Shown here one piece after another: positions 1,666 through 30,146 of a stretch of DNA of 30,146 nt. Numbering within the stretch: the first letter of the stretch is position 1; each line of letters starts with the position of its first letter. Source of the stretch: a virus. The notes beneath the pieces were generated by a model. It saw nothing but the letters and a program-made list of their open reading frames with translations. It searched no databases and had not been told where the DNA came from. A program made the position numbers and the translations under genes. The stretch lies in IMG/VR virus record IMGVR_UViG_3300030430_004489, positions 1 to 30,146 of that record. One strand, given 5' to 3'.

Positions 1666-4600
1666 TCAATCACCGATCAACGGGATTAATGTACACCTGC
1701 AGTTGATATCCTCAGATGCAATCCCAAACCCGCCGGGGCTTTCGGTGCTGTCGCCTGTGGACGGTACAACAAACTTATCATTGACATCTACAACTTGACC
1801 GTCAAGCTCAATATGTGTATCGCGTACACTATCATCAAGCGACGATAACCACTCTTTGCGAATGTTGATCCCGTTGTTTGCTGCGGTTGTGTAGGCTTGA
1901 TCCGTTGCCATATTGACCGCCTTTGTTGATTCGGTTCGTGCAATCGATCGCGCCCGCTTCGCTGAAAAGATTGCATCACGTTCGAGATCCCGCGCCATTT
2001 CATCGACTGAATCACCATTCAGTAATCCAGCCTCAACAATCTTTTTGATCTTGTTTGCTGTGGTTTGGCTGATCTGCATTGACGCAAGATCGTTGGCATT
2101 GACAGCCGCTTCACGACTTCCAAAGATCAGATCAAGGGGTTTTGTTTTGCCCGCTCGCGCAAAGACATCATCAAGCGCATCATTTCCCGCCAAGCTCCAA
2201 ACACTTAACCATTGACGCACCATTTGTTTACGTAAAATACGCATTTCGTCAATAGGTGACAATAATGAGGCCCAGTCAATCACGGCCCGCGTAACCTTTG
2301 CAGATCCTGCATGTTTGCGGCTTACAACATAATCTTTGATACGGTCTTGATAACGTTTAAGCGATTGCCTGAGGTATGTATACACAACACGCTCAATGCT
2401 CTTTTCAGCGGGTTGTTGCACCCGTTTCACCCACCCGTGCCACATGTCCGATCGTTCTTTGCGTGCGTTGATCTTTTTCTTTTCCTCCTCAATGAGCTCT
2501 TTCATATACGTTTGACCACGATCGCCAACAACAAACCATTTGATTTGTGCAACGGTACCGGCAAGGCGAAAATCTTGTAAATGACGTGCGGCCCATGATT
2601 CGCGCTTACGTATTGCCATCTCTTCCGTATCGGTTTTTGGCTCTTTATCAGCGCGATCAACAATAGGCTTGAGCCGTCTGTATTGGTTGTTGCCCTCAAT
2701 GTTTCCACCCTTGCGCCATATTTGCGGCCAATTGTCTTTTAAGTCTTGTGCATAGTCTGCATCAAATACTCTGTATTGTGAATTTGCAAGCGATACCGTT
2801 CGATCGTCTCCTTGCGTTGGAAAGTTTGTTATTTCCTCCTTTTTCGTTTGCTCCTTTTCCCATGGCGCAACGGGTGCGGTTTCATCAAATCGATCATACA
2901 AATCTTTGATTTGCTCATAAAGACGCTCTTTGTCCTTTTGGGTTGCGCCGCTCAGGTTGTAATAACCCGCGCCAAATTTAGGCTCACCACGTACCGAAGA
3001 TCCTGCGGCAACAACACCACGAAAAACGATCTGTAAATCACCGTTGATCATTTTGGCGATAGGCAAGCGATACGATGCCGGATCATCATCGCCGCCCCTG
3101 TTGACAAACAAAAAGGCTTGCGCATATCGATCCATGTTTTCATCATCGCCTAATATCTTTTTTGCTTCACGTTTGGTAAATCCCCAGTTTTGATCCTTTG
3201 CAGCAAGATCAAGATCTTTCCACCCATAAATCAAGTGTTTTTTTTTATCGTCATCATCCTCAGCATTTGACAGCGGGTGATCCTTTGGCAATAGATCGGT
3301 ATCATATGGTGATCGTCTGTACTTGCCTGTACGAAGCGCATACAACAAACCATTCACGCGCCCCATGGCCCACTGTGCGCCGCTTGAAACCGACGGGCGC
3401 ACGCTCTCGGGATTGCCCTCGTATGCAGCCAAACCGCGCCAATATGACACCGCCAAATAACCGCTATTGGTTAGCTTTTTCTTTGGGTTGTCGCCGTACT
3501 CCTCATTATGATCCTTTGCCTTTTTTTTTAATGCCTTTTGTGTTGATTCAGGTAATGCGCCCATAGCCTCAAAAGCATTACTCTTGAGGCCATAATTAGT
3601 TTCTTGCTTTTGGTTTTTGTCAATGGCTCTAAGCATAAATTCGAGAGCTCGCACGTTTTGGCCCTCCTCATCGCCTATATCTTGCGCGGGTGTTTCTCGT
3701 TCATCCTTTGGTATTATAGGGGCATCTTCAAGGCCCTCATACATGTACGCATCAGCCGGATCCATACCATTAAGTATATTTTTGGTTACGCGGTCAAGCT
3801 GTGAATCACGTATCGTTTGCAATGCTTCGACACCTGAATAATCGATTTCAACACGCAAGGAAGTATCAAACCGCTTTGCAATTTGCGTGAGCAAGAAACT
3901 CAATCGTTTACCTCTTTTGGTTTGTACTTCCCAGTAGTTTTGTGCCTGTTGCCGTGATACCGCAAAGTTTGCGCTATTATCACCCAACACCGATGGCGGC
4001 ACGCCAAACACCGCGCTAATCGCTTGCCTTGTATAATCTCGTACGGCCTGAAATTCGAGATCACGCGGCGATACCTGCAACGGTTCAACATTTACTTGAC
4101 CGCTTAAGACCATCGCCCCGCCCTCTTGACTCATGCCTTTGTATGCGTCAAGTATTGCACGTCGTTGCTCATAATCCCAAATGTCAGCCTCATCGGATGG
4201 ACTGATCAAAATGTCAGGCCGCCCCTTTTTTGCTGCATCACTGGCTAGCTTTTGCGCGCTTATATCGGCCCCTATTTCGCGTTGTAATGGTTGGATACCT
4301 CCGACACCATACAAAGCATTTACACCCGCGCCCCAAGAAGCACTCTGAGCGTATACGACACGCTCGATCGGATATGCAACAATGTTGCCACTATCCTCGA
4401 ACTCAAAGCCCTTAATTCCGACTATTGGATCCGTAATGATTCGCGTTTGCTCAGGATGCAAACGGAACAATGAGGCGGGTGTATCCTGAGGCCCTGCGAG
4501 CAAAACATAACAACCGCCCGTTAACATCAAGTCAACGATCAACTGTTCGCGAAATGAAAAGCCGTCAACGTATGTGCTTGGTTGTTCCATCAAATCAAGG

Positions 4601-4896
4601 AATGGATGATCCATTAATACTTCGCTTGTTTCACCGCGCCCGCGTATGAGCTTGATCGGTAAAGCCGCCAAATCTTGTGACGCTCTTGAAACCGCTGCAA
4701 ATACATAGCCATGTTGTGAAAATGCAGCCATTGAAACGCCTGCAGGGTATGGATTTCGCGCACCTTGTGCCCTGTCCCAGTCTGCACCGTGTGCAGGCCG
4801 CTCAGGCTTTTCAACAGGTTTTGCAAACGCCTTTGTTATTGGTTCGATCAAGCGTGCCCAAAAAGATACGGGTTTTGCTGGAAGATCTTTGCTCAT
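1666..4896 (-). CDS. Portal protein fused to MuF-type minor head protein, 1076 aa
   Basis: Residues about 1-400 are an HK97-family portal, the ring at the capsid vertex through which DNA passes (AVFGVPPSVLG near 295-305 and the following AVSRQQ helix are typical). Residues about 935-1076 are a MuF minor head domain: RARSIARTEST, then KEWLSSLDDSVRDTH, LDGQVVDVND and the closing INCRCT. Between them lie three modules that I associate with other phage head proteins: about 437-540 (SYWRGLAAYEG, QWAMGRVNGLL, DTDLLPKDHP), about 555-675 (WGFTKREAKKILGD, LPIAKMINGDLQIVFRGVVAA) and about 705-805 (YRVFDADYAQDLKDNWPQIW, WAARHLQDFRLAG). Ordinary portals are 400-500 residues and MuF proteins are separate genes. 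The start has a good GAGGTGAT site. No frame break is seen. Confidence 0.9.
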   Translation of the reverse strand: MSKDLPAKPVSFWARLIEPITKAFAKPVEKPERPAHGADWDRAQGARNPYPAGVSMAAFSQHGYVFAAVSRASQDLAALPIKLIRGRGETSEVLMDHPFLDLMEQPSTYVDGFSFREQLIVDLMLTGGCYVLLAGPQDTPASLFRLHPEQTRIITDPIVGIKGFEFEDSGNIVAYPIERVVYAQSASWGAGVNALYGVGGIQPLQREIGADISAQKLASDAAKKGRPDILISPSDEADIWDYEQRRAILDAYKGMSQEGGAMVLSGQVNVEPLQVSPRDLEFQAVRDYTRQAISAVFGVPPSVLGDNSANFAVSRQQAQNYWEVQTKRGKRLSFLLTQIAKRFDTSLRVEIDYSGVEALQTIRDSQLDRVTKNILNGMDPADAYMYEGLEDAPIIPKDERETPAQDIGDEEGQNVRALEFMLRAIDKNQKQETNYGLKSNAFEAMGALPESTQKALKKKAKDHNEEYGDNPKKKLTNSGYLAVSYWRGLAAYEGNPESVRPSVSSGAQWAMGRVNGLLYALRTGKYRRSPYDTDLLPKDHPLSNAEDDDDKKKHLIYGWKDLDLAAKDQNWGFTKREAKKILGDDENMDRYAQAFLFVNRGGDDDPASYRLPIAKMINGDLQIVFRGVVAAGSSVRGEPKFGAGYYNLSGATQKDKERLYEQIKDLYDRFDETAPVAPWEKEQTKKEEITNFPTQGDDRTVSLANSQYRVFDADYAQDLKDNWPQIWRKGGNIEGNNQYRRLKPIVDRADKEPKTDTEEMAIRKRESWAARHLQDFRLAGTVAQIKWFVVGDRGQTYMKELIEEEKKKINARKERSDMWHGWVKRVQQPAEKSIERVVYTYLRQSLKRYQDRIKDYVVSRKHAGSAKVTRAVIDWASLLSPIDEMRILRKQMVRQWLSVWSLAGNDALDDVFARAGKTKPLDLIFGSREAAVNANDLASMQISQTTANKIKKIVEAGLLNGDSVDEMARDLERDAIFSAKRARSIARTESTKAVNMATDQAYTTAANNGINIRKEWLSSLDDSVRDTHIELDGQVVDVNDKFVVPSTGDSTESPGGFGIASEDINCRCTLIPLIGD

Positions 4897-5501: not shown

Positions 5502-5798
5502 TTATTTTTTTGCTTTGCGATCAAAGTAGCGTTTAAGTGCTTCCCTGTACTGTTTTTCATTGTACTGAAATGCGATCATCACATCACGTTGCTCTAACAC
5601 TGAATCATCTATGATGGCATCAAAGAGCATTTCAACGCCATGATCGCCGCATGCCTTTTGATAATCCTCAATCAAATGCGTCAATGTGGTTTGACAATCG
5701 ACCATTTGAATATGAAGCCTCAGGAGCCTGTTGCGTGCTTCTGAGATCTTATGTACAAGGCTGATGATACGCCTTTCAAGCTTTTGCTCATGACTCAT
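5502..5798 (-). CDS. Hypothetical helical protein, 98 aa
   Basis: Starts MSHEQKLERRIISLV with GAGGATC upstream, which is inside the end of the methyltransferase gene (11-base overlap). The product is almost entirely helical and charged, with coiled-coil character (residues about 5-50), and ends KRYFDRKAKK. Overlap with the methyltransferase means the two are co-translated. A role as a partner of the methyltransferase is possible but not shown. No family recognised. Confidence 0.7.
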   Translation of the reverse strand: MSHEQKLERRIISLVHKISEARNRLLRLHIQMVDCQTTLTHLIEDYQKACGDHGVEMLFDAIIDDSVLEQRDVMIAFQYNEKQYREALKRYFDRKAKK

Positions 5799-7086
5799 AA
5801 AGATCCTCAAATAATGATAGTTGTGCGTTTTCGAGTTTGTACTGTTCGCGCGCCGCTTCGATGCGCCCGTCTATGATTGGCATGTATTCCGGTGTGAGCT
5901 CCATACCAATAAAATCAAAGCCCTCAAGAAGTGCAGCCGCGCCCGTTGTACCGCTACCCGTAAAAGGATCAAGTATCACAGATCCCTTTTGCCCGCCAAT
6001 CAATCGACAACACCACCGCATGAGCTTGATCGGCTTAACTGTTGGGTGTATATTGCGCACCTGATCAACCCTTGCACCGGCACCGGCGCGCGGATTCCTC
6101 GATCCTGCGGCCCCCTCTTTTCGTTGTACAACCTCATGACCTTTCATTGGTCTTAAATGGTCAAGCCCTTGCTCACGCTCAGATCGTGAGGCTTTTGGGC
6201 ATTGGTAAAGGTTTGCAGGCCATCGACCAAACTCATCACTTTTTGATGATAGCTTTGACGGGTTATGATCGCCTTTGTACTTTTGCCCGCTTCCATCCAT
6301 ATACGAACCGTATACATTAGAATTACTTTGATGGTTATATTCAAGTTTTTCGTTTGGGCCTACCCAACACGGATCACCATACCCAAAACGACACGCATCT
6401 ATATTGAGCGCACCCGTGCCATGTTTCAATACATTTTGTGCAATGGTCAAACCCTTTTCAAGCGGCTTACGAAGTAACAAAGCGGGTTCAACTGCGGGCT
6501 TAAGTGCCGTGCCAAACCCCGCCCATTTTTGAGCGTCTTGTGTTGCGGGTTTTGTGATTGTTGATACATTTTGCGGTATCCCGTCACCGTTGCCAAACTT
6601 CTCAAACCCTGTGTTTTTTCGTTGCCCTGTTACACTTGTAATGATCCCCGTATCTTCACGAACCGCCCCCGCCTCACGATCGATTGCTTTGCTTATATCG
6701 TGCGACTTTGGAAATCCTGAGAAGTAACACCAGTGAATCATATCACGTATCACAAAACCGCCCTGTTGCGCAGCCATACCCAACGCACAAACGGTACGCG
6801 TTGAGCTAAAGGCTATCATGTGCCCGCCGTGTTTCAAGACACGTAAACACTCAGCAAAGAAGTTGTGACACGGTACGGCTTGATCCCACTCTTTGCCCAT
6901 AAATCCCTTAAGCTTGCGCCCCTCTTCGATGTCTGCCCAAGTGCGCGCTATGCCATCAGGTGACATGCCATACGGCGGATCGGTTACAATCGCGTCAATG
7001 CTATTCGAGGGCAAAGTTTTAAGGAGTTTCATGCAATCCCCGTGAAAAACTTTTGTTGTTGGTATATCATCCCAGTTGTCAATCAT
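5788..7086 (-). CDS. DNA (N6-adenine or N4-cytosine) methyltransferase, beta class, 432 aa
   Basis: An S-adenosylmethionine-dependent DNA methyltransferase. The catalytic motif TDPPYG is at residues 35-40 and the SAM-binding motif DPFTGSGTTG is near the C-terminus (about 373-382). This order (motif IV before motif I) defines the beta class. HPTVKPIKLMRW just before motif I is typical of phage DNA methylases. The region of about residues 130-340 is the likely target-recognition part. The start MIDNWDDIP overlaps the upstream tiny gene as ATGA; a longer reading would begin inside that gene. No endonuclease gene is nearby, so it is an orphan methylase, probably protecting phage DNA or timing replication. 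Target site cannot be read from sequence. Confidence 0.92.
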   Translation of the reverse strand: MIDNWDDIPTTKVFHGDCMKLLKTLPSNSIDAIVTDPPYGMSPDGIARTWADIEEGRKLKGFMGKEWDQAVPCHNFFAECLRVLKHGGHMIAFSSTRTVCALGMAAQQGGFVIRDMIHWCYFSGFPKSHDISKAIDREAGAVREDTGIITSVTGQRKNTGFEKFGNGDGIPQNVSTITKPATQDAQKWAGFGTALKPAVEPALLLRKPLEKGLTIAQNVLKHGTGALNIDACRFGYGDPCWVGPNEKLEYNHQSNSNVYGSYMDGSGQKYKGDHNPSKLSSKSDEFGRWPANLYQCPKASRSEREQGLDHLRPMKGHEVVQRKEGAAGSRNPRAGAGARVDQVRNIHPTVKPIKLMRWCCRLIGGQKGSVILDPFTGSGTTGAAALLEGFDFIGMELTPEYMPIIDGRIEAAREQYKLENAQLSLFEDLYES

Positions 7087-7218
7087 TGGTTTAACCATGT
7101 GTTCAAAGAGTTGTAGCAATAAAAGCAGGCATAACCGCCCTCAACTTTGTAAAACGAAAAACAATCAGGGTTCTCCTTTTGCGCCGCGTATCGTGTTTGT
7201 TGTTGTGAGTATCTCATT
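7083..7218 (-). pseudogene. Tiny gene with an apparent one-base frameshift
   Basis: An ATG at 7218 has the standard AAAGGACA ribosome site, but its frame stops after 17 codons. A one-base shift in the A/C-rich run near 7195-7205 would open a 44-residue frame whose second part (GGYACFYCYNSLNTWLNQ) looks like a genuine Cys-containing protein. It ends exactly in an ATGA overlap with the methyltransferase start. The downstream frame has no start codon of its own. Either a recent one-base indel broke the gene, or there is a sequence error in a slippery CAAACAAAC run. Confidence 0.5.
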
Positions 7219-8054: not shown

Positions 8055-9506
8055 TCATTGTCTGTGCTTTTTATACCTATACAAAAATGAAACCTCGTAT
8101 CTAAGCGCATCCAGCCCATGATCGTGCATTTTTTCAGGGCGATCCTTTCCTTTGGTTTTGCTCCATTTGTACTTTCGAAATTCTTTAATGAGCTCCTTGC
8201 AATTCGAAAATACATAAAGCGCAGGCCGTCCATTTGCATCGAGTTTAAGCCTATCCTTGACCTGATTGATTGTTTCCATCACGCCTATATGTTTTGGCGC
8301 GGGCTTCGTATGGATCCCAAGTTCACGCGCCAAAAGAAGCCGCCCGTCTTTGCTCTCAGGATCCGCAACGACCCACCGCAGATCGGGATCCTTTGCACCT
8401 AATGCAAGAATCATTCGGCCATTTTCAAGCGTGGTTTTTTCGGTCTTGTAATACTCGCGATAGACGTACAACGCATCATCATCCTGATCGTGTGCTATCC
8501 ACAAACATGCAAACGGATTACGCACGCCAAAATCAATGCACATATCACGCGGCCAATGCTCAGGAATCTCAAAGGGTTTGACCACATGCACCGCCCGATC
8601 AAACTCAGGATACACTAACCCGCTTTGACTCGTAAACATGCCAAACAATCGCGCGTTTTGACTTGCTTCGCTCAGATGTGCAACGGCCCGCCTAAGCTTG
8701 TTACTCGATATGTACGGATTATCAAGCCCGCTAATTGCATATCGATCAAAGCCCTGCGGTTGTTGATCAACGAAAAAGTCATACAAAAATGAAAGGCCTT
8801 TCAAGGGTGTTGCTGTAATTAGGATCTTGCCTTGCGTGTCAACTGTTCGTAACATGCACTCATCAAAAACGTCAACGGTTGGCTCTTCATCCATCCACAC
8901 AAATTTGACGCTTGCCCCTTGAAACTTTTCACGCCCTGCGTCCACGGACAAAGACACGATCCGGCCGCCGTTTGGCAACTTCATTGAAGCCCGATCCTGC
9001 GCACGCCAACGTATGTATTTTGTGCCCTGTGGTGCGTATTGTTCCAACTTTGGCCGCCCGTATTCCAGTGCATCACCATACGATAAAGCCGCATACCATA
9101 CCGTTTGCGGCTTACGCTGTATCAGGTTTTCGGGTAGGTTGTTAAGCCTCATCCACTCTTTGACCCACCATTGATCACGCCCTGCGGCAATTGCGATCGC
9201 AAGTTGTGCGCCAAATTGTGTTTTTCCTGCACGGTTGCCCCCTGTACATAAAAAGGCTTCGCCTGTATTTGCAAACCTGATCGCGGCTTCGCGTTGTGAT
9301 GTTCGCCGCTCTTCGATGCCACAATGCAAACATTGGTATGTTCCCATACCGATCATTGTCATTGGTCGACCGCAACCACGCGCGCGATCGCTCTTTTTGC
9401 CGTGCCCATCCCACCTGTGACAATACGGTATCCAAAGGCGCGACAACGCCAAAGGATAGCCTTTTTTGATTTCAAGCAATTGACGGCGGGCACGGGGCAA
9501 AGACAT
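8055..9506 (-). CDS. terL: Terminase large subunit, 483 aa
   Basis: Packages DNA into the prohead: N-terminal ATPase and C-terminal nuclease. Walker A GGNRAGKT is at residues 89-96, Walker B VKFVWMDEE at 200-208, and the coupling motif ITATP at 230-234. The RNase H-like nuclease acidic residues are CIDFGVRNP (Asp325), VADPESKDG (Asp382) and HDHGLDALRY (Asp466). Before the ATPase lie Cys29, Cys45 and a CLHC pair (59-62), which could bind zinc. The start MSLPRARRQL was chosen because it follows the previous stop by two bases with AAAGAG upstream; a longer reading would overlap the upstream gene. Confidence 0.95.
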   Translation of the reverse strand: MSLPRARRQLLEIKKGYPLALSRLWIPYCHRWDGHGKKSDRARGCGRPMTMIGMGTYQCLHCGIEERRTSQREAAIRFANTGEAFLCTGGNRAGKTQFGAQLAIAIAAGRDQWWVKEWMRLNNLPENLIQRKPQTVWYAALSYGDALEYGRPKLEQYAPQGTKYIRWRAQDRASMKLPNGGRIVSLSVDAGREKFQGASVKFVWMDEEPTVDVFDECMLRTVDTQGKILITATPLKGLSFLYDFFVDQQPQGFDRYAISGLDNPYISSNKLRRAVAHLSEASQNARLFGMFTSQSGLVYPEFDRAVHVVKPFEIPEHWPRDMCIDFGVRNPFACLWIAHDQDDDALYVYREYYKTEKTTLENGRMILALGAKDPDLRWVVADPESKDGRLLLARELGIHTKPAPKHIGVMETINQVKDRLKLDANGRPALYVFSNCKELIKEFRKYKWSKTKGKDRPEKMHDHGLDALRYEVSFLYRYKKHRQ

Positions 9507-10635: not shown

Positions 10636-11061
10636 TTAGTCCTCATCAAGATCGATGGTTGGCCCGTCGATCAAGGGTTTTATTTCGTTATTATACTCAT
10701 TGATCAATGTTTGCACGTCAACATTCTCAGCATCAATCGTTATTTGTACAGGCGGCGGGCCGTCTTTGACGTATCCATGGCAACGCTCAAGAAGCCACGC
10801 GGCCGCTTGCCATTGTTCCGAACTTGCTGCGCGAATCACCTCTAGTAACTGATGTGATCCTTTGGTTCTTGCCTGTTCGAGCTTGCGATAAAATGATCGG
10901 TATGGTTGCCGCCCCTCTTTTGCAAGGTTGATCCACCTGTACAGCGTCGAGGGATCAATACCCGCATAGTATGCGCATTGATCGCGGGTGTGACCTTTTG
11001 CGGCCGCTTCCAACAATCTTGATACTATTTGTTCATTGAGAATCTTCGCAGGTTGGCCCAT
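10636..11061 (-). CDS. terS: Terminase small subunit, 141 aa
   Basis: Recognises phage DNA for packaging. The N-terminal helix-turn-helix (GHTRDQCAYYAGIDPSTLY, then RWINLAKEGRQPYRSFYRKL) matches the common phage small-terminase pattern. It is followed by a helical oligomerisation region (ASSEQWQAAAWLLERCH) and an acidic C-terminal tail that could contact the large subunit (PTIDLDED). The start MGQPAKILN is preferred because it overlaps the upstream stop as TAATG. Two genes separate it from the large subunit, a looser arrangement than usual. Confidence 0.85.
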   Translation of the reverse strand: MGQPAKILNEQIVSRLLEAAAKGHTRDQCAYYAGIDPSTLYRWINLAKEGRQPYRSFYRKLEQARTKGSHQLLEVIRAASSEQWQAAAWLLERCHGYVKDGPPPVQITIDAENVDVQTLINEYNNEIKPLIDGPTIDLDED

Positions 11062-11249
11062 TACTTGATCCCCATAGCTTTCGCGCATAATCTTCGCACT
11101 TGCTCACCTGTACTAATGCCATTTTTTGATGCTTGCTTTTGTATTTTCATGAGCATTTTATCAGGAAATACAACGCTCAAAGTTGGCGATCTTTTTCGGT
11201 TGCTGTATGCGTTACCGCCTGCGTTGAGTATGTTATCATTGTCTTTCAT
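11061..11249 (-). CDS. Ribbon-helix-helix protein, 62 aa
   Basis: Starts MKDNDNILNAGG with AAAGGGG upstream; longer readings enter the preceding gene. Residues about 25-58 (LSVVFPDKMLMKIQKQASKN, then GISTGEQVRRLCAKAM) give the strand-helix-helix plan of Arc/MetJ-type repressors. Such dimers bind short AT-rich palindromes, so it is a candidate binder of the 15-bp operator sites in this window. It lies just upstream of the small terminase (TAATG overlap). Confidence 0.75.
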   Translation of the reverse strand: MKDNDNILNAGGNAYSNRKRSPTLSVVFPDKMLMKIQKQASKNGISTGEQVRRLCAKAMGIK

Positions 11250-12474: not shown

Positions 12475-13500
12475 TTATATAACTGCGCAATCAATCAAAG
12501 CGGCGAAATCTTCGAGGTTTGGATCGCTGATAATCTCTTTTCGTATCTCTTCTGTCAGGTTGCCACCTCGAACCCAATCAAACACCTGATTTGCACATGC
12601 CTCATAATCGTTTGTGTTTGCCCGAAAACGCGCCCATAAGGTTTGAGCCTTGCCGTTGCCATTCATCGCAGCCGCTTGTGCTTTGTCGCTACTCTCAACC
12701 GCCTGCAAAGCCTGATCTTTGATTTCCTCCACAACCTCAGGATCAAGGATGATTGTACTCAATCTCATTTTGTTGTTGTCGTATTTTGTTGGAGGTTTGT
12801 CGCTCTCTTTGGCAACCCATCGATCCTTAAACTTCGCGGCCCAACCGCGCCCAACATACATGCCGTTAATGTCATTTTGGATAATATACGTGTCAAGCTT
12901 GCGTACGGCCTTTGAGACTTGCAACACGGTTGATCCTGCTTTGATAAAATCAAAATCGGCTTGCACGTCAATACTTGCCCAACCTTGAGCCGTTGCATGC
13001 TTTGCCCATAACTCACCCAACCACAGATCACGCATATCAATCTTATCACTGATGAGCGGTTTGACTTCTTGCGTAGGCTTAGTACTCTCTTTAATTGGAT
13101 CTATTTCTTGTATCTCTTTACTTAATTTACTTAGGGGATCATTTTCGATCCCCCTTTGGCTTAGAACTGATCCCCCTGCGGATCGTTTTTGATCCTCTAA
13201 AGGTCTATTTTCGATCCCCTTTGGCTTAGAAATGATCCCGCCTACATCATAGATATTTGATGAGGTGCGCTTTGAACTTTTGAGATTAATCGCGCCTTTT
13301 TCACGCAACTCTTTGAGGCCCCGCTTAATGCTTCCAATTGATAGGCCTGTATTTTCCGATAGCGTTCCCTTTGATGGAAAGGCTTGTCCATCAGCACCCG
13401 CAAAAAATCGCATTTCGATGAGTATCAGGATCGCGGCTTTGCTCAAATCTTGAAATGCCCGCGCATCATCTTTGGTTATCTTGATAAATAAATCAGTCAT
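12475..13500 (-). CDS. Putative replication initiator, lambda-O-like organisation, 341 aa
   Basis: Starts MTDLFIKITKDDARAF with AGGACA upstream. Residues about 15-80 form a winged-helix/HTH domain as in phage replication proteins: AILILIEMRFFAG, FPSKGTLSENTGLSIGSIK, then LKELREKGAINLK. Residues about 85-140 are a low-complexity linker whose DNA holds direct repeats (13137-13240). The C-terminal 190 residues are helical with many Trp (MYVGRGWAAKFKDRW, QTLWARFRANT) and may contact a host helicase or its loader. No helicase or polymerase gene is present, so the phage must recruit host machinery. The gene is divergent from the exonuclease gene and shares its control region. Confidence 0.7.
   Translation of the reverse strand: MTDLFIKITKDDARAFQDLSKAAILILIEMRFFAGADGQAFPSKGTLSENTGLSIGSIKRGLKELREKGAINLKSSKRTSSNIYDVGGIISKPKGIENRPLEDQKRSAGGSVLSQRGIENDPLSKLSKEIQEIDPIKESTKPTQEVKPLISDKIDMRDLWLGELWAKHATAQGWASIDVQADFDFIKAGSTVLQVSKAVRKLDTYIIQNDINGMYVGRGWAAKFKDRWVAKESDKPPTKYDNNKMRLSTIILDPEVVEEIKDQALQAVESSDKAQAAAMNGNGKAQTLWARFRANTNDYEACANQVFDWVRGGNLTEEIRKEIISDPNLEDFAALIDCAVI
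13137..13240. other. Putative replication origin with iteron-like direct repeats
   Basis: Two near-identical 34-35 base direct repeats lie at 13141-13175 and 13207-13240, 66 bases apart; they share ATTTTCGATCCCC, TTTGGCTTAGAA and TGATCCC and differ by one C and one substitution. A shorter related GATC-containing inverted segment lies between. Seven GATC sites fall within 101 bases. An AT-rich tract (about 13085-13135) borders one side, as at a DNA unwinding element. The position inside the linker of the initiator gene is exactly the plan of the lambda origin in gene O. Origin function is inferred. Confidence 0.6.
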
Positions 13501-13538: not shown

Positions 13539-13568
13539 CAATATAACATAATGTATGACACCTGTACA
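13539..13568. promoter_or_regulatory. Divergent promoters sharing an operator
   Basis: CAATATAACATAATG (13539-13553) combines one arm of the common operator with one arm of the 11902 variant. Minus strand: TGTACA (13568-13563), 17 bases, TATATT (13545-13540), toward the replication gene. Plus strand: CATAAT (13547-13552) with TTGTTG upstream, toward the exonuclease and fibre genes. The hexamers are moderate matches. Confidence 0.5.
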
Positions 13569-13585: not shown

Positions 13586-14194
13586 ATGTATGTAGTATTA
13601 GACACAGAAACAACAGGCCTTTACAGCAACAGGCACGAAATGATTGCGTTTTGTGGTATCAAACTTAGTGACAAGCTCGAAGAGATCGATCGATTGCACA
13701 TCAAAATCAAACCGCAAAACATCGCGCAAGCGGATCCGCAGGCCTTGCGCGTCAATGGTTACACTGATTACAAATGGCGTGATTCAATCGATCCAACTGA
13801 GGCCGGAAATATGATCGCTGATTTTATGCGTGATTGTATACCCGTCGCGCACAATTGGCCCTTTGACCGTGGTTTTATTTTGGCGCATCTGAACAAATAC
13901 ACAAACGGACGCAAGATCCTAAGGCGCGGCATTGATACCGTATCACTAGCGAGCGCAGTGTTGATCCCTATGGGTTACAAGAGCGTATCAATGCAAACAA
14001 TCGCGGATATTTTTGGATGGCCAACACAAACACATGAGGCCCTTGACGATACACTTTATTGTGTGCAGTTATTCCGGCTCCTTTACCCGTATAACGTCCG
14101 CAACATGATCAAGGTGCATGCTATGATATACCGTGCTAAGATACGCATGTATACAAATCCAATGCGGGGCAAAAACAATGGGCCTAAATCTTGA
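13586..14194 (+). CDS. DEDDh 3'-5' exonuclease (DnaQ-like), 202 aa
   Basis: All catalytic motifs are visible: Exo I LDTETTG (Asp6, Glu8), Exo II HNWPFDRGF (Asp94) and Exo III HEALDD (His150, Asp155). The fold is that of the proofreading-exonuclease/RNase T family acting on DNA or RNA 3' ends with two metal ions. No DNA polymerase gene accompanies it. AAAGGACA lies upstream of the ATG. It heads a plus-strand operon whose other members are tail-fibre genes, and overlaps the next gene by 17 bases. Roles could include repair, degrading host nucleic acid or trimming recombination ends. Confidence 0.9.
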   Translation: MYVVLDTETTGLYSNRHEMIAFCGIKLSDKLEEIDRLHIKIKPQNIAQADPQALRVNGYTDYKWRDSIDPTEAGNMIADFMRDCIPVAHNWPFDRGFILAHLNKYTNGRKILRRGIDTVSLASAVLIPMGYKSVSMQTIADIFGWPTQTHEALDDTLYCVQLFRLLYPYNVRNMIKVHAMIYRAKIRMYTNPMRGKNNGPKS

Positions 14195-29673: not shown

Positions 29674-29689
29674 GCCCGCACATGCGGGC
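29674..29689 (+). other. Intergenic GC-rich RNA hairpin
   Basis: GCCCGC-ACAT-GCGGGC (six to seven pairs) follows the stop at 29658 and precedes the next ribosome site, with no T-run. Same design as the hairpins near 196, 7238, 7723 and 29886. Confidence 0.6.
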
Positions 29690-29708
29690 ACAACCAAAGA
29701 GCAAAACA

Positions 29709-29879
29709 ATGACATACAACAAAATGCTATACAAGAAACTTCAAAACATGATGAAAGAGCTTGATACCCTCATAGAACAATCACATGTATACGATTCAAA
29801 ATACCAAGAACAGATCGGCGACATCTACACAAAGATCGATCTGTTACTCGAAAAAATGGAAAACAACAACGATCAATAA
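29709..29879 (+). CDS. Small hypothetical protein, 56 aa (second version)
   Basis: Homologue of the gene at 19-189, with changes such as Phe to Tyr, Lys to Ser, Leu to Ile and Gln to Lys in the C-terminal half; the first 27 residues are the same. Charged and helical. AAAGAG lies upstream. Followed by a hairpin at 29886-29905 and the next tiny gene. Confidence 0.75.
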   Translation: MTYNKMLYKKLQNMMKELDTLIEQSHVYDSKYQEQIGDIYTKIDLLLEKMENNNDQ

Positions 29880-29885
29880 CAACAA

Positions 29886-29905
29886 CCCGCCCGCCCTGCG
29901 CGGGC
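29886..29905 (+). other. Intergenic GC-rich RNA hairpin
   Basis: Same sequence as the hairpin at 196-215 although the surrounding coding sequence has diverged, which suggests that the hairpin itself is conserved. Confidence 0.55.
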
Positions 29906-29929
29906 AACTTCAAACCAAAGGACAAAACA

Positions 29930-30094
29930 ATGAAATGCGTAATCATCACATATCAATCAGGCAAAACAGCCGTATACCTCAAAACCGATCCTGCACTTCT
30001 TGACGAAATCTTACACTCGAATGACTGGATCGTTGAGCTACATGAGGCCGATTTTGTACATCCTCAGCCCACAGCAAAAAAAGGGGGTGAGTAA
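29930..30094 (+). CDS. Small hypothetical protein, 54 aa (second version)
   Basis: Homologue of the gene at 241-405. The first 42 residues are identical while at least six codons differ silently; only IQPK versus VHPQ near residue 43 changes the protein. AAAGGACA lies upstream, and the stop overlaps the next start (TAATG). Confidence 0.75.
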   Translation: MKCVIITYQSGKTAVYLKTDPALLDEILHSNDWIVELHEADFVHPQPTAKKGGE

Positions 30095-30146
30095 TGCACA
30101 TCCTTGTATTTATCGCGGTGTATATCGTCAAGCCTGCGCTCATCAT
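30094..30146 (+). CDS. Small membrane protein, partial at window end
   Basis: First 17 codons (MHILVFIAVYIVKPALI) of the homologue of the gene at 405-641, cut by the window boundary. One visible residue change (Met to Val) in the hydrophobic segment. Confidence 0.7.
   Translation, partial: MHILVFIAVYIVKPALI

Follow-up and report, generated by a model that had tools for sequence, protein, structure and literature searches.

A putative lambda/SPP1-type replication origin within the initiator gene of a phage lineage

Proven examples of intragenic phage origins are known from bacteriophage lambda, in which the origin lies in gene O (PMC7466680), and from phage SPP1. In SPP1, the origin oriL is located inside gene 38, coding for the replisome organizer G38P, and is composed of direct repeats and an A+T-rich unwinding region (PMC6316719). 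The lambdoid phages P27 and 933W carry six iterons together with a longer O protein and linker (PMC7466680), and the ori2/RctB system of Vibrio cholerae uses head-to-tail iterons, each with a GATC, at regular spacing (PMC6090056).

Here, we describe a locus of related layout in a stretch of 30,146 nucleotides of DNA from an uncultured phage (IMG/VR record IMGVR_UViG_3300030430_004489; hereafter, the window). As judged from its sequence, the gene of a putative replication initiator would harbor a theta-type origin of the lambda/SPP1 type, bound by the winged helix of the initiator itself, a reading to which we assign a probability of roughly 0.88.

A putative initiator gene with an iteron array

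The open reading frame of the initiator (Table 1) is extendable to position 13605; the alignment of its relatives begins at the ATG at 13500. Pfam HTH_36 matches the protein above the cut-off (E=2e-11), and PHROG replication initiation families match at E=1e-10 to 2e-4, with the O-like ones (phrog_678, E=9.8e-8; phrog_391, 6.2e-5; phrog_345, 1.9e-4) covering the N-terminal part and the linker only. For residues 1 to 89, AlphaFold predicted a domain of the order H-H-H-H-E-E with fair confidence (pLDDT 75.5, pTM 0.70), whose nearest PDB structures in a Foldseek search were winged-helix regulators at modest E-values (best E=3.5e-3). The linker that follows has a very low predicted confidence, compatible with disorder. 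Nothing in Pfam matched the C-terminal part, which is mostly helical in a low-confidence model; a model of the full-length initiator was too poor (pLDDT 48) and was discarded.

An earlier note on this DNA had described the origin as lambda-O-like. This proved right as regards the layout, but carries over poorly to the protein family: neither Pfam Phage_rep_O (PF04492) nor NCBIfam TIGR01610 matched the initiator, while the same models readily recognized lambda O as a control (5.7e-36 and 5.4e-39). Similarly, profile comparison with lambda O gave nothing significant, a PDB sequence search returned no convincing match for the initiator and none for lambda O either, and searches of annotated phages and bacterial genomes found no homologues in either.

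Some 40 to 70 bp upstream of the initiator start, there is a promoter-like element whose CATTATGTTATATTG is kept in relatives. Its conservation is better evidence for a putative promoter than the promoter scan, which by itself was not above chance (2 matches versus 3.5 in shuffles). With this conserved element upstream, the origin would be transcribed along with the initiator gene, as in lambda.

Table 1. Coordinates of the features described in the text
Feature	Position in window	Strand	Remarks
Initiator gene	12475..13500	-	341 aa, start ATG at 13500
N-terminal winged-helix domain, putative DNA-binding	13234..13500	-	residues 1-89; HTH_36, AlphaFold
C-terminal part of initiator	12478..13080	-	without known family
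Promoter-like element of initiator gene	13540..13568	-	TGTACA-17-TATATT
Iteron 1	13223..13240	-	CGGGATCATTTCTAAGCC, phase 2
Iteron 2	13202..13219	-	GGGGATCGAAAATAGACC, phase 2
Iteron 3	13180..13197	-	GAGGATCAAAAACGATCC, phase 0
Iteron 4	13158..13175	-	GGGGATCAGTTCTAAGCC, phase 1
Iteron 5	13136..13153	-	GGGGATCGAAAATGATCC, phase 2
A+T-rich purine-biased tract, candidate unwinding element	13087..13131	-	adjoins iteron 5

Inside the initiator gene, in the DNA for about residues 87 to 122 (the linker), we found five 18-bp iterons with the consensus GGGGATCAnnnnYRAnCC, whose starts are spaced by 21, 22, 22, and 22 bp. The two repeats of 34-35 bases, 66 apart, that the earlier note had reported are real but understated what is truly a five-unit array. 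That is, a 24-nt repeat (13151-13174 and 13216-13239; 96%, 65 apart) and a 16-nt repeat (13141-13156 and 13207-13222; 94%, 66 apart) make up one repeat of 33-34 nt with a 1-nt indel, and the two long repeats represent the iteron pairs 1+2 and 4+5. Also recovered were the seven GATC sites claimed for 101 bases (13137-13237), where their density is the highest in the window, and the neighboring A+T-rich tract. Since GATC is common throughout the window (345 sites versus 106 in dinucleotide shuffles; ∼1.2 expected per 101 bases), the GATC cluster is weaker evidence when taken alone. The tract (45 bases, 13131-13087) is 76% A+T and, on the coding strand, 73% purine, and in its vicinity, duplex stability over 50 bp drops to within the lowest 0.2% of values for the window.

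Chance can be excluded as the origin of the array. Its score of 110.8 compares with a mean of 15.3 (sd 14.9, maximum 67.9) in 2000 synonymous-codon shuffles within the gene; because the score matrix derives from relatives, this test depends in part on the conserved protein. The best 24-nt self-match, which needs no relatives, reached 23/24, versus at most 20/24 in 1000 synonymous-codon shuffles. Elsewhere, a single PWM match in the capsid gene (28361; 16.9 bits) was dismissed as being about what chance predicts for 60 kb.

Dyad symmetry is strong in iterons 3 and 5 and weak in iterons 1, 2, and 4, which makes dimer binding at every iteron uncertain. Together with its flank, iteron 5 constitutes a perfect 7-bp inverted repeat, GGGGATC-n6-GATCCCC, which is identical across all relatives. 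Iteron 2 alternates between A-centered and T-centered forms among relatives and is still an iteron.

Conservation of the array at the DNA level

Seven further records contain the initiator (L001-L005, L007, and L082), with 57-88% identity to that of the window; six are viral contigs at 63-88%, and L082, at 57%, was found only via the DNA motif. Over the aligned stretch, L004 does not differ from L005, so that these two do not count as independent. A proposed check of the earlier note, namely, whether the repeats are conserved in homologues despite divergence, came out positive: in all seven relatives, the array occupies the corresponding position, in linker-coding DNA. The array of L082 comprises six iterons (spacing 22-21-22-22-22), compared to five in the other seven records, the window included. 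The core of the A+T tract is likewise conserved in L001-L005 and L007, and in L082 with changes. In whole-record scans of the window, L001-L005, and L007, exact matches to the iteron pattern, which misses some divergent iterons, were confined to the initiator gene, and a reversed control pattern had no match in these seven records. Most other matches from the motif search that gave L082 were chance, as were exact GGGATCATTTCTAAGCC matches in L009 and L011, which fall into unrelated genes without an array; pattern matches in L107-L111 were limited to one pair of sites, with unrelated sequence around them.

Focusing on synonymous codon differences, we observed 1.6% at codons 87 to 137 for the window and L001-L004, as opposed to 29.8% before and 31.5% after this region. 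Pairwise comparison of the window with L007 gave 2/40 inside versus 83/171 outside (p=6e-8) and that with L082 gave 6/36 versus 76/149 (p=1.6e-4). No other frame stays open beyond 67 codons across the array, making a hidden overlapping gene an unlikely cause of this constraint. Moreover, with a period of 22 bp, one more than a multiple of three (1 mod 3), all three frames are represented among the copies (phases 2, 2, 0, 1, and 2, in order). With the frame shifting between successive iterons, the encoded peptides (GIISKP, GIENRP, DQKRS, GGSVLS, and GIENDP) are unrelated and form no single repeat. In phase 0, both common iteron forms would give a stop (TGA or TAA); the phase-0 iteron always has the open AAAAACGATCC form, with ACGATCC where ATGATCC would bring a stop. 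A C at position 13 is seen in 6 of the 30 iterons tabulated, all of them phase-0 units in which a T would make TGA. On the strength of such sequence comparisons, we conclude that selection acts on the DNA, beyond the peptide. The lineage offers a clean comparative case of a putative DNA-binding array that is kept across all three frames, with bases avoiding stop codons.

A separate array of the GGGATC type was noticed in L112 (2205-2296), and the same one in L106. It consists of four repeats of 22-23 bp (AGGGGATCGGAATCCA...) within an ORF of 160 aa that shows weak winged-helix matches (DnaD_N, 0.0016; HTH_36, 0.0056) and no protein match in annotated phages. Possibly, this represents another, independent instance of the layout in an apparently unrelated ORF, suggesting that annotation underestimates how common such a layout is.

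Proposed mechanism and alternative readings

Starting from the observed array, with its spacing, position, DNA-level conservation, confinement to the initiator gene, and A+T tract, we infer initiator binding, dimers, melting, helicase loading, and origin function by analogy with lambda and SPP1. The winged-helix N-terminal domain would bind the five 18-bp iterons, which lie about two helical turns apart, and the bound initiator, probably in the form of dimers, would stack on one face of the DNA and wrap it. Strain from this complex might then melt the purine-rich A+T tract beside iteron 5, whereupon the C-terminal part, a presumed recruiter of a helicase or loader, would attract the host's replicative helicase. 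The ORFs scanned did not include a recognizable lambda P, DnaC, or DnaB-like gene, and the genes next to the initiator (103 aa and 187 aa) were not recognized as loader or helicase; recruitment of the helicase may involve a loader of a new type. The candidate origin and initiator form a precise, testable pair.

GC skew, which the earlier note had proposed as a check, did not point to the array: calculated with circularity assumed (29,690 bp), the detrended minimum falls at 9415, away from it. The minimum of AT skew (13536) coincides with a divergent gene boundary. For origins in small phage genomes, a skew switch is supporting rather than defining. The divergent gene beside the initiator encodes an RNase_T-type exonuclease (13586-14194; phrog_192, E=4.8e-28) and is found at the same place in L082. 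As for the window itself, its ends (1 to ∼470 and 29682-30146) hold similar, non-identical copies of the same genes, which would reflect either two variants joined in a wrapped assembly or a duplication that is genuine; with such a near-repeat at the termini, the window may or may not be complete. The portal gene (1666-4896; 1076 aa) is fused to a Mu gpF-like domain.

The array could alternatively represent initiator-binding sites for autoregulation or copy control, through handcuffing or titration, with the strands opening elsewhere. Plasmid and chromid iterons have control roles, too (PMC6090056), and the array does lie within a transcribed gene. However, it is located ∼300 bp downstream of the promoter-like element and not over it, it is followed by a conserved purine-rich A+T tract as in lambda, and a second array is absent from every record scanned, which together make this explanation unlikely. 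We give even less credence to a cis-acting RNA element, be it in the form of initiator mRNA hairpins or of a terminator for the opposite strand. Iterons 3 and 5 do fold as hairpins (-7.1 and -13.1 kcal/mol), and there are two terminator-like matches on the + strand (13134-13153 and 13168-13185), the first of which, however, has no T run directly after its stem. Iterons 1, 2, and 4 fold no better than shuffles, and in relatives iteron 2 switches between a form that has a strong dyad and one that lacks it; given this weak folding and switching of forms, hairpins are not the conserved feature.

Phages use conserved repeated sites in packaging as well, and such a function (pac/cos), or one in recombination, would account for the repeats. 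Yet the array resides in the initiator gene, ∼2 kb from the small terminase gene (10636-11088), and its anatomy is of the initiator type, so that we consider a packaging or recombination site very improbable. The least credible scenario is that of a recent duplication or peptide repeat without DNA function: while disordered regions do expand by duplication and the linker is compatible with disorder, the peptides of successive copies differ, their frames being different, synonymous sites are nearly frozen in relatives down to 57% identity, and the observed scores lie above all synonymous shuffles. We favor the intragenic origin, which would add a phage lineage to the set of intragenic iteron origins, with an initiator that matched nothing in the collection of annotated phages searched.

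GATC is present at iteron positions 4 to 7 in 29 of the 30 iterons tabulated (the exception being unit 1 of L007), overlapping the putative half-site. By base composition, it is over-represented approximately threefold, ranking first or second of all tetramers in the window, L001-L005, and L007. The window also encodes an N6/N4 DNA methyltransferase (5788-7119), relatives of which, 74-89% identical, occur in the records L001, L002, L003, and L005, among them every one of the three that, besides the window, exceed 28 kb; the match in L002 consists of two pieces ∼200 bp apart, with one TGA. One may speculate that adenine methylation switches the origin, with a phage or host enzyme timing or licensing initiator binding. 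We deem this unlikely; if true, the rule of V. cholerae ori2 would recur in a phage, within a lambda-style intragenic origin. As a separate observation, GCGC is strongly depleted in L004 and L005 (5 and 10 sites, 0.13-0.15 of expectation), and not in the window or other relatives, which suggests escape from a GCGC-cutting restriction system.

Comparison with known origins

The claim that the origin lies at the place equivalent to that in lambda gene O agrees with the layout of the annotated lambda origin (PMC7466680). In ori-lambda, too, there is a winged-helix N-terminal domain, iterons in the linker DNA, an A+T tract, and a C-terminal domain. Its iterons (J02459, 39034-39118) are likewise 18 bp long and in mixed reading frames, starting at nt 349, 369, 393, and 416 of gene O, and a purine-rich A+T tract comes immediately after them, again on the same side and strand (76% A+T in both; 73% purine here versus 69% in lambda). 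In contrast, lambda has four iterons, not five or six, with a spacing of 20-24-23 rather than 21-22-22-22, and an iteron ATCCCTCAAAACGAGGGA in place of GGGGATC-n6-GATCC; the protein described here falls outside Pfam Phage_rep_O, and no P-like gene was found. Both arrays contain GGGAT/ATCCC half-sites and A-rich centers in opposite arrangement, a likeness to which we give no weight.

With SPP1 oriL, the locus shares repeats and an A+T-rich region within the initiator gene, a likeness of layout; SPP1 differs in that it possesses another origin (oriR) and codes for a loader (gp39) and a helicase (gp40) itself, whereas neither loader nor helicase was found here. As in P27 and 933W, the iteron number varies among relatives, L082 having six, but two iterons were added there versus one in L082, and the iteron sequence is unrelated. 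V. cholerae ori2 has head-to-tail, GATC-bearing iterons at regular spacing in common with our array, but is a chromid origin with 12-mers that is Dam-dependent. Thus, the layout is of an already known kind, while the lineage has its own iteron sequence, iteron number, and spacing, as well as a protein family of its own.
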